Shown piece by piece: positions 12,917 to 40,848 of a stretch of DNA of 41,040 nt. The translations under genes and the position numbers were made by a program. Under the pieces are notes generated by a model, which was not told the DNA's origin, made no database searches, and saw nothing but the letters and a program-made list of their open reading frames with translations. Source of the stretch: Wenzhouxiangella sp. (GTDB lineage Bacteria > Pseudomonadota > Gammaproteobacteria > Xanthomonadales > Wenzhouxiangellaceae); the NCBI GenBank assembly GCA_007694885.1, contig REEW01000064.1, positions 1 to 41,040 of the forward strand. The letters are read 5' to 3'. Positions within the stretch are counted from its first letter, which is position 1; each line of letters opens with the position of its first letter.

Positions 12917-13065
12917 GGCAGATCAACGCAGATAAACGCGGATAAAAAAAGCTTACAAAGATCGAAACCCGGCTCGGCATGGAATGCAGGAAAGGGGCTT
13001 TCTGCGCAGAGTCAAATACTCCTCAAAGCAAAAAATCCGCGTTCATCTGCGTTCATCTGCGGTTA
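12917..13065. repeat. Inverted decamer-repeat element, copy A
   Basis: Left arm about 12918-12945 and right arm about 13034-13062 are imperfect inverted copies. Each is built of 10-bp units of the form GCAGATGAAC / GCGGATGAAC, with a few transitions and a shift to GATAAAC in the left arm. A core of about 90 bp with no obvious gene lies between them. The element fills the gap between the convergent stops of mnmG (12904) and the symporter (13079). It could act as a bidirectional hairpin terminator, and it belongs to the same family as the element at 28674-28823. Confidence 0.8.
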
Positions 13066-13078
13066 CAAGCATTTCAGT

Positions 13079-14479
13079 TCAGCGCGGCGGGACGTCCGAC
13101 CAGGCCTCGCGATCGATCTTCAGATCGGCGAAATCGTCCGGGTTGAATACCGGCACTTTGCCGGCGCGCGACTGTTCGTCGTAATCGCGCATCAGCCGGA
13201 AGCAGACCTTGAGCATCAAGGCCAGGGCGAGCAGATTGACCAGTGCCAGCAGGGCCATGGTCAGGTCGGCAAAACTGAAGATCGTTTCCAGGTTCTGCAT
13301 CGAGCCCCACAGGATCAGCACCAGCATCAGCACGCGAAAGACGATGAACAGCACCCGATTGCCCGGATCCATCCAGTGGGTTGCGTTTTCGCCCAGGTAG
13401 AAGTTGTACAGGATGGAACTGAAGGCGAACAGCATCAGGACGACGCTGACGAAGGTCTGACCCCAGGGCCCGACGTGCTGGGCCAGGGCCAGCTGGGTCA
13501 GGACCACGCCGTTGTCGACCGTACCCATGGTGTGCATGCCGGCCATCAGGATGATGAAGGCAGTGGCCGTACAGATGATGGCGGTGTCGATGAACACGCT
13601 GAACGACTGGACGATACCCTGGTTGACCGGGTGCGGCACGTAGGCCACCGCGGCCACGTTGGGGGCGCTGCCCAGACCGGCCTCGTTGGAAAACAGTCCC
13701 CTGCGGACCCCGTGCATGATGGCCGCGCCGATGCCGCCGCCGACGGCAGGCTCCAGGCCAAAGGCGCTGTTGACGATCAGCCCGAGCACGGCCGGAATCT
13801 GGCCGGCATTGACCACGATCACGAACAGCGCCACGGCGATGTAGAGCACGGCCATGACCGGCACGATGACCTCGGTGACGCGCGAGATGCGCTGCACGCC
13901 GCCGAAAATGGTCACCCCGATGACCGCGGTCAGAACAACCCCGGTCACCCAGGTGGGGATGCCGAAGGCCTCGTTGAGGGACGACGAGGCAGTGAAAGAC
14001 TGCAAGGCGACGAAGGCCAGGCCGAAGGTGACCAGCAGCAGCAGGGTGAACACCATGCCGAGGCCGCGACTGCCCAGGCCGCGTTCGATGTAATACATGG
14101 GTCCGCCGCGAAACGTGCCGGTTTTTTCGTCCCGGGTCTTGTAGGCCTGGGCCAGCGAACACTCGAAAAAGCTGGTCGCCATGCCGATCAGACCGACCAC
14201 CCACATCCAGAAAATGGCGCCGGGACCGCCCAGGGTGATGGCCACCGCCACCCCGGCGATGTTGCCGGCGCCAACGCGACCGGCCACGCTCAAAGTCAGC
14301 GCCTGGAAAGACGACACCTGGCCGGGATGATGGCGAAACGCCTGGCCCAGAACCCGAAACATTTCGCCGAAGTAACGCAGCTGGACGAATCGGGAGCCGA
14401 TGGTGAAGATCAGGCCGATCGCGATCAACACCGCAATCAGCACATACGACCAGAGAAAATCGGTGACGGTAACTAGCAT
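13079..14479 (-). CDS. Alanine/glycine:cation symporter (AGCS family)
   Basis: Sodium- or proton-coupled importer of alanine or glycine in the inner membrane. The 466 residues contain about ten or eleven hydrophobic segments. AGCS hallmarks present are GRVGAGNIAGVAVAITLGGPG, the segment WMWVVGLIGMATSFFECSLAQAYK, RGGPMYYIERGLG and SNEAGLGSAPNVAAVAY. GGAG lies a suitable distance before ATG 14479. The next gene upstream, on the same strand, ends 25 bp away, so the two could be cotranscribed. Substrate preference between alanine and glycine cannot be read from the sequence. Confidence 0.92.
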   Translation of the reverse strand: MLVTVTDFLWSYVLIAVLIAIGLIFTIGSRFVQLRYFGEMFRVLGQAFRHHPGQVSSFQALTLSVAGRVGAGNIAGVAVAITLGGPGAIFWMWVVGLIGMATSFFECSLAQAYKTRDEKTGTFRGGPMYYIERGLGSRGLGMVFTLLLLVTFGLAFVALQSFTASSSLNEAFGIPTWVTGVVLTAVIGVTIFGGVQRISRVTEVIVPVMAVLYIAVALFVIVVNAGQIPAVLGLIVNSAFGLEPAVGGGIGAAIMHGVRRGLFSNEAGLGSAPNVAAVAYVPHPVNQGIVQSFSVFIDTAIICTATAFIILMAGMHTMGTVDNGVVLTQLALAQHVGPWGQTFVSVVLMLFAFSSILYNFYLGENATHWMDPGNRVLFIVFRVLMLVLILWGSMQNLETIFSFADLTMALLALVNLLALALMLKVCFRLMRDYDEQSRAGKVPVFNPDDFADLKIDREAWSDVPPR

Positions 14480-14504
14480 GGCAGAGACGCTCCGCTAAGG
14501 GCGG

Positions 14505-15518
14505 TTACGGGATGGCATCGGCCGGCTCTCCGCGCAATCGCTGGAAGAAGCGGCGCCGGTCCTGTTCGGTGACCCGGCGGGGGGTAGTGTACTCGGCCGC
14601 CGAATCCGGGTCAGGATCGATCAGGATTCCCCACAACGGGCGCTGGCTGGCCGGATCGATGGCGTAACGGAAATCGCCAACGAACAGCCTGTCGTTTTCG
14701 TCCAGGGCCGGGTAGCGGAACAGCCAGCCGGTCGAAAAATGGTCGAAACGGAGCAAATCGTTTCCGGCGCGCGTATCGGGATCCACGTCATCGACACGGA
14801 AACGCGGCACCGACCCGCCGGGGTAGATGACGGCCTGCGTCCACGGCAAGGTCCGGATCGCGACCAGGTGCAGATTCCGGCCGTCATCGACCAGGGCCCG
14901 CCACAACACCAGGTTGGCAAAAGCCGGCTTGGCAACCCGACGCTCGACGGCAAGCTCCTGTTCTGCTGCCCAGTGGGTCAGAATCGTCTCCGCGCGCTGG
15001 TTCTGCCAGGCGCCGAAGGCCATGTAGAGCACCATCCACGCCAGGCCGGCAAAGACCCAGCGATGACTGCGGCGCCAAAGGGCAACAGCGAGCAGCCCGG
15101 CCAGCGGCAGCGAATACAGCGGATCGACCACGCTGATCCAGTTCCAGGCCACGCGCACATCGCTGAACGGCCACCACAGATGGGTGCCGTAGGAGGTACA
15201 GGCGTCGAGCAAGGGATGGGCAATGTAGCCGAGCAGGCACCACAGGTACAGCCGCGCAAACGACACCGAACGTTTCAGGAACGGCCACAGCAGCAGGGCC
15301 ACGGCCAGGCTGCCGATCGGCGCAAAAGCGAACGAATGGGTGAACTGGCGATGATACTCGATGTACAGCAGCGAATCGTCCGAAGACCGGATCAGGCTAT
15401 CGAGGTCAGCGACCATTCCGCTGCTCGCCCCGGACAGGGCGGCGACGCGCATTTGCTCACGACGCGCGGCCGGGAGCGCCCAGAGGGCGCCGAACAATCC
15501 GTGGGTGACAGGATCCAT
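14505..15518 (-). CDS. DUF457/YdjM-family membrane-bound metal-dependent hydrolase
   Basis: A 337-residue integral membrane protein. The N-terminus MDPVTHGLFGALWALP, then ADLDSL, HRQFTHSFAF and GYIAHPLLDACTSYGTHLWWPF supply the conserved His and Asp residues typical of the YdjM/YbcI (DUF457) family, which is thought to bind metal. About four hydrophobic segments lie in the first 190 residues. The last 150 form a soluble domain with VDDVDPDTRAGNDLLRFDHF. The physiological substrate is unknown for the family; a role in lipid or envelope metabolism is only suggested. CATAAC ends 6 nt before the ATG, another possible near-leaderless start. Confidence 0.85.
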   Translation of the reverse strand: MDPVTHGLFGALWALPAARREQMRVAALSGASSGMVADLDSLIRSSDDSLLYIEYHRQFTHSFAFAPIGSLAVALLLWPFLKRSVSFARLYLWCLLGYIAHPLLDACTSYGTHLWWPFSDVRVAWNWISVVDPLYSLPLAGLLAVALWRRSHRWVFAGLAWMVLYMAFGAWQNQRAETILTHWAAEQELAVERRVAKPAFANLVLWRALVDDGRNLHLVAIRTLPWTQAVIYPGGSVPRFRVDDVDPDTRAGNDLLRFDHFSTGWLFRYPALDENDRLFVGDFRYAIDPASQRPLWGILIDPDPDSAAEYTTPRRVTEQDRRRFFQRLRGEPADAIP

Positions 15519-39987: not shown

Positions 39988-40011
39988 TCCGTCAGTGTAG
40001 CCCGGGCTGGC

Positions 40012-40698
40012 TCAGGTCAGCGCCCAGTCGACCGGCGCGAGTGCCTTGCTTTCCAGCCATCGGTTGGCGGCGGAGAAATGGCCGCAGCCGAAGAATCCGC
40101 GGTGGGCCGACAGCGGCGACGGATGCGGCGCTTTCAGGACCAGGTGCCGGGCCGTGTCGATGGCCGCCCCCTTGCGCTGGGCCTGCGCGCCCCAGAGCAG
40201 AAACACCACGTGCTCACAGCGTTCATTGACCGCCGCCACCACCGCGTCGCTGAAGCGCTCCCAGCCCCGGCCCTGGTGGGCACCGGCCTGACCGCGCTCG
40301 ACGGTCAACACGGCGTTGAGCAGCAACACGCCCTGCTCGGCCCAGGCCTGAAGGTGGCCATGCCGGGGCACCGCCAGGCCCAGATCGGACTCCAGTTCGC
40401 GAAAGATGTTGACCAGGGAGGGCGGCGGCGGCACGCCCTCGCGGACCGAAAAGCACAGCCCGTGCGCCTGCCCGGGACCATGGTAGGGGTCCTGGCCGAG
40501 GATGACCACCTTGACCTGCGACAGCGGAGTCGAATCCAGCGCATTGAAGATCTCCGGCCCCGGCGGATAGATCACCGCCCCGTCCCGTTTGCGCTCGCGC
40601 AGGAAGGTCCTGAGCGTTTGCATGTAGTCCTGCTCGAATTCACCGGCCAGCACTTTCAGCCATTCGGGGTGCAGATTGATTTTTGGAATTTCTGACAT
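40012..40698 (-). CDS. ung: Uracil-DNA glycosylase
   Basis: Family 1 UDG that removes uracil from DNA by hydrolysing the N-glycosidic bond in base excision repair. In the 228 residues: the water-activating motif [18 protein letters not shown] with Asp70, [26 protein letters not shown] and the catalytic-His leucine loop [18 protein letters not shown]. The length is normal. Its start lies 8 bp from a G-rich inverted repeat, so its promoter must lie within or beyond that element. Confidence 0.96.
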
Positions 40699-40705
40699 TT
40701 GGCTC

Positions 40706-40848
40706 GGGGGGGTCAGGGGCTAGGGGCTAGAGGTCAGGGTTCCTCATTGCCAGCGGCCAACTCAGTATAAGAAATAACCGTTCATGCACCGAGACTGATC
40801 ACTACTCCGGGGCTCCCTGACCCCTGACCCCTAGCCCCTGACCCCTAA
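40706..40848. repeat. G-rich inverted heptad-repeat element, copy D
   Basis: The left arm (40706-40739) has heptads of the form GGGGTCA and GGGGCTA. The right arm (40815-40848) is its inverted copy with a few mismatches over about 31 bp. A core of about 75 bp without a gene lies between them. On the minus strand the right arm carries five G-runs of 3-4 with 3-nt loops, a strong G-quadruplex motif. The element fills the divergent gap between ung and the reductase gene. It shares period 7 and overall design with the element in the suf operon. Confidence 0.85.

Follow-up and report, generated by a model that had tools for sequence, protein, structure and literature searches.

Bacterial miniature inverted-repeat transposable elements (MITEs) are short and non-coding, have inverted ends, occur in many copies, and are presumed to be mobilised in trans. 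A minisatellite MITE is reportedly present in P. gingivalis. In the available text on the 23S rRNA intervening sequences (IVS) of Coxiella burnetii, heptamers (GACAGAT) are located beside the S23p/IVP gene; excision by RNase III has also been published, as has the suspicion that the protein is involved in mobility (PMC4990558). In two Xanthomonas genomes, the GGGNATC/GGGGAYT heptamers of Xanthomonas and Nostoc are arranged as 70 and 75 convergent inverted pairs, and 83% of these pairs have the same gene context in both. In the accessible part of that report, they are described as quadruplex-forming and as generally not found with mobile elements (Rehm 2015, PMC4692102). Here, four intergenic elements (E1-E4) were analysed in a 41,040-nt stretch of Wenzhouxiangella sp. 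(contig REEW01000064.1), the whole of which is called the window below. With a probability of about 0.72, E1-E4 belong to two related classes of very small intergenic mobile element, as non-autonomous copies that lack a gene. On the best reading, full members consist of inverted tandem-unit arms and one small gene, which encodes a GxxExxY protein in the 10-bp class (E1 and E3) and a four-helix 23S intervening-sequence protein in the 7-bp class (E2 and E4). A mobile non-autonomous class had been proposed in an earlier note on this sequence; it is supported by empty and filled sites, by arms at many genome sites, and by two gene families found between arms.

All four elements, described in that note as intergenic and as having inverted arms of ~30 bp made of tandem units, are present where they had been placed, as unstranded features. 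E1 (12916-13062; arms 12916-12943 and 13035-13062; core 91 nt) is located between the convergent genes mnmG (stop 12904) and an agcS-type carrier gene (stop 13079). E2 (20494-20579; arms 20494-20523 and 20550-20579; core 26 nt) occupies the sufB/sufC gap of the minus-strand suf operon. E3 (28675-28822; arms 28675-28705 and 28792-28822; core 86 nt) lies between pntA1 (stop 28671) and the next transhydrogenase gene (ATG 28852). E4 (40709-40845; arms 40709-40739 and 40815-40845; core 75 nt) is flanked by the divergent ung (start 40698) and a gene beginning at 40908. Two elements are thus inside operons, as had been noted, E2 in suf and E3 in the transhydrogenase operon. The neighbouring genes were named from NCBIfam matches; the 97-aa gene after E3 had no NCBIfam match and was named by position. 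The arm units of E1 and E3 are 10 bp (CGCRGATNAA); those of E2 (GGGTTCA/GGTTTAA) and E4 (GGGGTCA/GGGGCTA) are 7 bp. With sub-registers set aside, E1-E4 rank at the top of the 24 inverted pairs found in the window, the extended pairs being 12902-12943/13035-13076 (E1), 20494-20523/20550-20579 (E2), 28666-28705/28792-28831 (E3), and 40709-40739/40815-40845 (E4). The Rfam scan of the window gave no match at the gathering threshold, and therefore no rRNA is present in it; E1-E4 are all outside 23S rRNA genes, between protein genes.

The abundance of such elements was examined in the window genome (G000, 88% complete). A de novo inverted-repeat search of the window and 20 further stretches (433,005 bp in all) identified 32 inverted repeats. 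Twelve scored at least 18; 11 of these 12 are tandem-unit elements, and 11 of the 12 are intergenic by gene calls made here. When L073 (score 16) is added to the 11, the resulting 12 tandem-unit elements have 7 co-directional, 3 convergent, and 2 divergent gene contexts, against 265, 53, and 50 among all adjacent gene pairs; one divergent call (L060) is doubtful because a predicted open reading frame covers the element. In the 2.60-Mb genome, the arm patterns gave 42, 40, and 23 matches, and the reversed-pattern controls gave 0. By manual count, 28 of the 42 matches of the 10-bp pattern fall into 13 convergent +/- groups. The arms therefore recur genome-wide, and are not absent from other intergenic regions.

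In G024 and G041, the sufB/sufC junction holds a 10-mer element that encloses a GxxExxY gene, which led to a search for PF13366 (GxxExxY); the 23S intervening sequences led to a search for PF05635 (four-helix, IVP/S23p). An arm pair was counted as passing at an inverted-repeat score of at least 34. The flank windows differed slightly, being 160/200 bp for the genus loci and the ordinary genes of the window genome and of relatives, 200/240 bp for the wide sets and the ordinary genes scanned with them, and 250/300 bp for the further order loci. PF13366 had 35 matches in 22 of 30 genus genomes; five were without a locus, and three short fragments were left out of the remaining 30 loci, which gave 27 scanned loci. 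In 22 of these 27 the gene is inside inverted arms, mostly of 9-10-bp units; the five failing loci comprise one contig edge, two fragments, and two full-length genes. PF05635 had 28 matches in 15 of the 30 genomes. All were scanned, and 19 are inside inverted arms, mostly of 7- or 8-bp units by inspection. Around the weakly matching four-helix genes of L193, L199, and L205 there are CAAATTCCAAGC-like units in two loci and CGAAATCCGAAGCACCAAA-like units in one, and a similar gene-less pair was observed at L145:3725-3877; these loci represent a possible third class.

The association extends beyond the genus. For GxxExxY, the best 80 of 566 confirmed places in GTDB species genomes were used, with hosts in Pseudomonadota, Chloroflexota, Spirochaetota, Planctomycetota, Verrucomicrobia, Bacteroidota, Cyanobacteria, a Methanosarcinales archaeon, and others. 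Of these loci, 41 pass at score 34 and 49 reach 28. Arms enclose the four-helix gene at 12 of 30 loci of the phylum, at 10 of 25 further loci of the order, and at 6 of 9 cyanobacterial plasmid loci (nine examined of 21 matching records). Flanking arms were found for only 1 of 547 ordinary genes (0/361 in the window genome, 0/116 in relatives, 1/63 among other genes in the GxxExxY wide loci, and 0/7 further). The sole positive is a 168-aa gene of L263 (score 47), which shares its arm type with the GxxExxY gene at that locus. In the wide sets, the unit that best fits the passing arm pairs is at least 9 bp in 36 of 41 GxxExxY loci and at most 8 bp in 21 of 22 four-helix loci (Fisher 4.6e-11). The arm unit length follows the enclosed gene family. 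The earlier note had favoured a repeated process over one ancestral repeat. The elements do not look like a single ancestral repeat, and the two unit families with one architecture correspond to two protein-linked classes. Within this order, GGGATTC- and GGGAATA-type heptamer arms, similar to the Xanthomonas repeats (PMC4692102), also flank four-helix genes (L372 and L378).

The enclosed genes are placed in the sense direction behind host genes. The upstream host gene is on the same strand at 15 of 15 GxxExxY loci (16 of the 27 loci were entered, one unusable) and at 19 of 21 four-helix loci (of 28), as if the enclosed gene depended on read-through. In three genomes of one genus (L360, L366, and L369), a four-helix gene was observed, by reading, just upstream of a carB-like gene with GGGACTC- or GGGACCC-type heptamers upstream; the flank scan of these four-helix genes found no second arm.

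Filled and empty versions of the same site were found on Nostoc plasmids for the four-helix class, at three junctions; a fourth case is a Nostoc/Calothrix pair. The A/B junction is empty in three plasmids, which read GTGAGGTAATGGGATTTG, and in four others with small differences. In pNsp_c of Nostoc sp. ATCC 53789 the same junction is filled, and reads GTGAGGTAATG, arm, gene, arm, a short tail, and then ATGGGATTTG. This insertion is clean, with ATG at either end, and is oriented with the operon; another Nostoc four-helix insertion has TTCTA/ATTCT at its ends. Three plasmids have the element at the X/A junction and four others lack it; at the TraM junction, two have it and three lack it. At the TraM junction of pNsp_c, a gene-less element with heptamer arms is located, by inspection, at exactly the same site. 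Between nrdB and nrdA an element is present in a Nostoc plasmid and missing from a Calothrix plasmid, its gene being opposite to its neighbours. In the four-helix class, arms and gene insert as one piece.

In the 10-bp class, a Chloroflexota contig (L218) carries two GxxExxY element copies in neighbouring gaps, which are 98.6% alike over 430 bp. They are alike through the left arm and most of the gene, and have diverged at the 3' end and the right arm. In this single case, a pre-existing element seems to have been the target of copying or conversion.

Orthologous junctions were compared within the genus, pntA1/pntA2 in 23 genomes and sufB/sufC in 24. The anchors were pntA1 (27559-28671, plus strand; NAD(P) transhydrogenase alpha, part 1), which is upstream of E3, and sufC (19708-20460, minus strand), which is downstream of E2. 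At pntA1/pntA2, 10-mer elements are present in G000, G014, and G024, a GGGACYA 7-mer element in G012, and GGGGTCA units in G043. ACAGAG units are present in G007 and G018, and ACGAAG units in G008, G015, G022, and G044, with a degenerate element of this kind in G005. No element is present in G002, G017, G004, G006, and G020, where the stop and start codons touch or overlap. At sufB/sufC, elements are of the GGGTTCA type in G000, G012, and G022, the GGTTTCC type in G007 and G011, and the AGTAAATAG type in G010, with degenerate 10-mer elements in G002 and G017. The sufD/sufS junction (18483-18499, minus strand) is 17 bp and empty in the window genome. It is likewise without an element in eight more of the 19 compared genomes, the gap in these nine ranging from an overlap to 55 bp, and is filled with elements of several unit families in the other 10. 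The tightly coupled junctions sufC/sufD (19 genomes) and pntA2/pntB (18 genomes) are empty. Relatives thus show gain, loss, and change of unit family at one junction, and not only the gradual divergence of ordinary terminators. The empty sites that the earlier note had proposed to look for exist, alongside filled ones, at sufD/sufS and on the Nostoc plasmids. Target-site duplications cannot be defined at sufD/sufS and pntA1/pntA2 of the genus because the species are too diverged. In G022 the sufD/sufS junction is 517 bp long and holds an ACCGAA-unit element with further direct repeats of its right end (L321:1494-1772).

These junctions bear on whether E1-E4 might be host-maintained RNA hairpins, that is mRNA 3'-end stabilisers, RNase III sites, or terminators selected at operon junctions. 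Five strands covering E1-E4 fold strongly (z = -5.4 to -7.8 against 200 dinucleotide shuffles, with 0/200 shuffles equally stable), and a stop codon lies ~4-14 bp from one end of E1, E2, and E3. Moreover, at the pntA site both arms are 100% identical between G000 and G014 while the core has diverged, an observation that also counts in favour of the mobile-element reading. However, E4 is located between divergent genes, 11 bp away from the ung start codon; the arms of E2 and E3 have no terminator-like site; and the absence of an Rfam match at the gathering threshold is also unfavourable. In addition, the orthologous junctions are empty in some relatives, pntA1/pntA2 in G002 and G017 and sufD/sufS in 9 of 19 genomes. 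This explanation is therefore considered unlikely, although a host RNA-hairpin role may be a secondary use of the elements. Intrinsic terminators, which have a GC-rich stem with a T run immediately behind it, were not supported by the empty sufD/sufS junctions, nor by a scan of E2 and E3, in which neither element had a site on its arms and the one match was in the E3 core.

At the sufB/sufC junction of four other species (L320:9893-10000, L332:409-520, L326:454-563, and G018, L116), a GTAG-starting palindromic repeat GTAGGTCGGGGTYRCATCCCCGAC was observed, which looks like a repetitive extragenic palindromic (REP) sequence. In the available text, REP sequences are palindromes of 20-40 bp tagged with GTAG or CGTC (PMC3733652). 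E1-E4 might themselves be sought among elements similar to REP sequences or bacterial interspersed mosaic elements (BIMEs), mobilised by a Y1 transposase of the REP-associated tyrosine transposase (RAYT) type. They are likewise extragenic, palindromic, and many-copy, and in other species the GTAG-type palindromes occupy the junction at which E2 is located here. By inspection, however, the arms of E1-E4 have no GTAG/CGTC tag, and the elements are built as tandem-unit arms around a core, so a REP/BIME-like origin is very improbable.

The relationship between gene-less and gene-bearing copies was examined within genomes. Of 25 genus genomes, 7 are rich in CGCRGATNAA arms (at least 14 matches). 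Five of the seven have a GxxExxY gene enclosed by arms of this kind, against 0 of the 18 others as far as these were scanned (Fisher 4e-4); the latter count is limited in this way because in G013 the contig ends before the arms and one G003 gene was outside the scan. G012, the nearest relative at PntA1 (93%), has one CGCRGATNAA match and no GxxExxY gene. GGGACYA heptamers gave 126 matches in G012, whose four-helix gene carries such arms, and 44 in G001 (65% complete), in which no four-helix gene was found. These matches overlap within arrays, and the reversed control carries no information, the pattern being similar to its own reverse. For the arm-matching test, 28 gene-less genus elements were hand-picked, with non-tandem families left out; nine had no same-class gene-bearing partner in their own genome, and 19 were used. 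The best-matching gene-bearing arm was in the own genome for 10 of the 19 (three ties), against 2.0 expected, and none of 2000 label permutations was as high.

The irregular CAGC-step arm variant CGCAAAGACGCRAAGCAGCRAAG has 13, 19, and 14 matches in G003, G010, and G016, and at most 4 in each of the other 27 genomes. Arms of this type flank a GxxExxY gene in G003 and G016; the scanned GxxExxY gene of G010 has other arms. This distribution is relevant to structure-driven local amplification, in which a chance quasi-palindrome would be enlarged in place by slippage and template switching across the hairpin, with no mobile element. Such a process could account for the variation of unit number and order between elements, the change of unit family at one site between species, and the long one-sided arrays. 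It is distinctly unlikely as the source of the elements, since a single irregularly stepped arm sequence is repeated at many sites in a few genomes, arms and gene are missing as a block from empty sites, and the arms track two gene families by unit length. Of the two processes offered in the earlier note, the mobile non-autonomous class is supported, and amplification is not needed; it could still be the way in which units multiply inside an arm.

The claim of the earlier note that the cores are unrelated held in sequence but not in length. Of the 33 paired 10-bp elements, 29 have cores of at least 30 nt, and these cores show no similarity to one another at E 0.01. The core lengths are not random: among the 33 elements, 19 are 83-99 nt and 5 are 14-32 nt, and among 14 heptamer elements, 8 are 17-26 nt and 5 are 72-98 nt. 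Two candidate explanations were rejected. Captured host DNA was not indicated, as 19 own-genome cores had no second copy in the ~1/5 of the genome searched; and co-evolution of the arms by pairing was expected to give unit-by-unit matching of the two arms of an element, which was not seen. At one locus, L279:1-225 and L279:1222-1389 have a ~170-bp core in common, and the adjoining array units differ (ATTAGTG vs ATTCGCG), as if the units had been replaced together.

The two proteins were compared with known families and structures. The GxxExxY protein matches PF13366 and TIGR04256. Its AlphaFold model (predicted local distance difference test, pLDDT, 96) is a single PD-(D/E)XK domain; the best structural match is Cas4 SSO0001 (Z 10.3 over 96 residues, root-mean-square deviation 3.2). 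The Holliday-junction resolvase Hjc is a lower match (Z 7.7, a value that chance matches can also reach), and the best Foldseek E for the model is 1.9e-3. In 29 sequences, E22, D61, and E71 are invariant, and K73 and Q85 are kept in at least 90%. The model thus predicts a PD-(D/E)XK fold of the Cas4/RecB-like kind, in which the E..D..ExK..QxxxY residues are conserved. For the four-helix protein, there is homology to the solved structure 2gsc (XCC0516; five chains) and, weakly, to Avd; NCBIfam DivGenRetAVD matches two of four scanned proteins, at 1.9e-6 and 5.9e-10. Four element proteins had no match to PADLOC defence families at E 0.001. The earlier note had proposed to look for a co-occurring nuclease, transposase, or reverse-transcriptase gene; two small gene families are located between arms, one with a nuclease fold, and neither is a known transposase.

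A mechanism may be proposed from these features. Host transcription would express the small protein by read-through from the upstream host gene, and the protein might act in trans on the arms. The arms, as inverted repeats, would be able to form a hairpin or cruciform. The arm-bounded segment might then be copied into a new intergenic site, or converted into the arms of another element in a homing-like manner; such conversion is proposed because the half-copied L218 pair suggests it. Gene-less copies would be served in trans. RNase III might cut back the RNA hairpin, as it does in 23S intervening sequences, and an insertion in an operon would then do almost no harm.

Several observations weigh against the proposal that E1-E4 are mobile, gene-less copies. 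The window genome itself has no four-helix gene and no intact GxxExxY gene according to profile searches of the 88% complete assembly. Its sole PF13366 trace is a weak partial match (G000:C121:6635-6721; 41.9 bits together with its neighbours), and the CGCAGAGA-type arms around it are of another type than those of E1-E4. No target-site duplication has been established for E1-E4. The 29 compared gene-less cores of the 10-bp class are mutually unrelated, unlike ordinary deletion derivatives. No convincing gene remnant was found in gene-less 10-bp cores, where one marginal tblastn match with the element proteins (E 0.014) was obtained. The preferred core lengths, near 20 and 80-100 nt in both classes, do not fit the proposal either. 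At the A/G unit sites of the 33 paired 10-bp elements, the two arms mismatch more than expected by chance (2.06 of 3 vs 1.51, p 1e-4; window genome alone, n=20, p 0.08). The arms therefore either avoid perfect pairing or stem from offset copies. For 9 of the 19 tested gene-less elements, the best-matching gene-bearing arm was in another genome, and the p-values are optimistic because the tests ignore phylogeny (clade structure). The gene association also has exceptions: the full-length GxxExxY genes of L155 and L158 are without arms, 39 of the 80 wide-set loci are below the threshold (four of them contig edges), and the units of the passing four-helix loci L193, L199, and L205 are longer and irregular. 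Lastly, the GxxExxY locus on the Fusobacteria plasmid pZRK30-1 (L391, the one examined of eight matching plasmid records) has flanking repeats of ~40 bp that are direct rather than inverted.

A broader interpretation is put forward tentatively, at somewhat less than even odds. The elements may belong to an unnamed superfamily of minimal mobile elements, present in many bacterial phyla and archaea, that consist of arms and one ~120-aa protein. The arm period would be set by the protein family whatever the unit sequence, 7 bp for Avd-like four-helix proteins and 9-10 bp for Cas4-like GxxExxY proteins. The arms would serve as recognition array and copying homology, and gene-bearing copies would seed and homogenise gene-less crowds in operon spacers. 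The 23S intervening sequences and the Xanthomonas/Nostoc heptamers would be special cases. Two widespread protein families of unknown role would thereby gain a testable job, and a single explanation is offered for several unexplained repeats, among them the Xanthomonas and Nostoc heptamers and the 9-10-mers of many phyla. That the repeat period goes with the protein family was not expected, and any collection of genomes would serve to check it. Operon spacers, those of suf and the transhydrogenase operon included, are also rewritten by the elements, by which translational coupling is changed and RNA processing perhaps as well. If a small nuclease or Avd-like protein does copy arm-bounded DNA without a known transposase, this would be a new mobilisation mechanism.

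In comparison with known systems, E1-E4 share terminal inverted repeats, many dispersed copies, and the lack of a gene with MITEs. They differ from them in that the cores are not derived from a gene-bearing form, the arms are tandem units, and the candidate partner proteins are no known transposases. The GxxExxY and four-helix elements with matching ends in relatives, none of which is intact in the window genome, are candidate mobilisers. The four-helix fold is homologous to Avd of the diversity-generating retroelements in the part of the literature available (PMC10053308), but the gene-bearing elements here have room for one small gene and not for a reverse transcriptase. The TAACTGA heptamers of Beggiatoaceae are, in the available description, intergenic and patchy direct repeats, mostly just upstream of start codons (PMC4679880), whereas the elements here are inverted. 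The earlier note knew of no named class. This held for the 10-bp class and not for the heptamers, as inverted G-rich heptamer pairs of Xanthomonas (PMC4692102) and the heptamers of the Coxiella IVS (PMC4990558) have been described. No report of the 10-bp class, or of a link between GxxExxY or four-helix genes and tandem-unit arms, was found in the open-licence PMC literature, which is weak evidence of absence as preprints and most subscription papers are outside it.

The Xanthomonas/Nostoc heptamers resemble the 7-bp class in being G-rich, intergenic, and near the ends of open reading frames; E4 (GGGGTCA) fits, as does the less G-rich E2, and E1 and E3 do not fit. Four-helix genes are enclosed by heptamer arms here, including the GGGATTC/GGGAATA types, whereas the available description of the Xanthomonas/Nostoc heptamers generally does not place them with mobile elements. 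The 23S IVS, as far as the published text available describes them, are like the present elements in their pairing inverted ends, sporadic distribution, suspected selfish or mobile nature, and site inside a transcript. The IVS core holds a PF05635-type gene, as in the gene-bearing relatives, but an S23p/IVP gene would not fit into the core of E2 (26 nt) or of E4 (75 nt). Heptamer ends as in the Coxiella IVS are found in E2 and E4 only, the units of E1 and E3 being 10 bp. The IVS are located inside 23S rRNA genes, whereas E1-E4 and their relatives are located between protein genes and are often gene-less. Unlike the 23S IVS, the elements here include a second class with GxxExxY genes and 9-10-bp units. 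The 7-bp class is an intergenic extension of the 23S intervening sequences, and probably extends the Xanthomonas/Nostoc heptamers as well.

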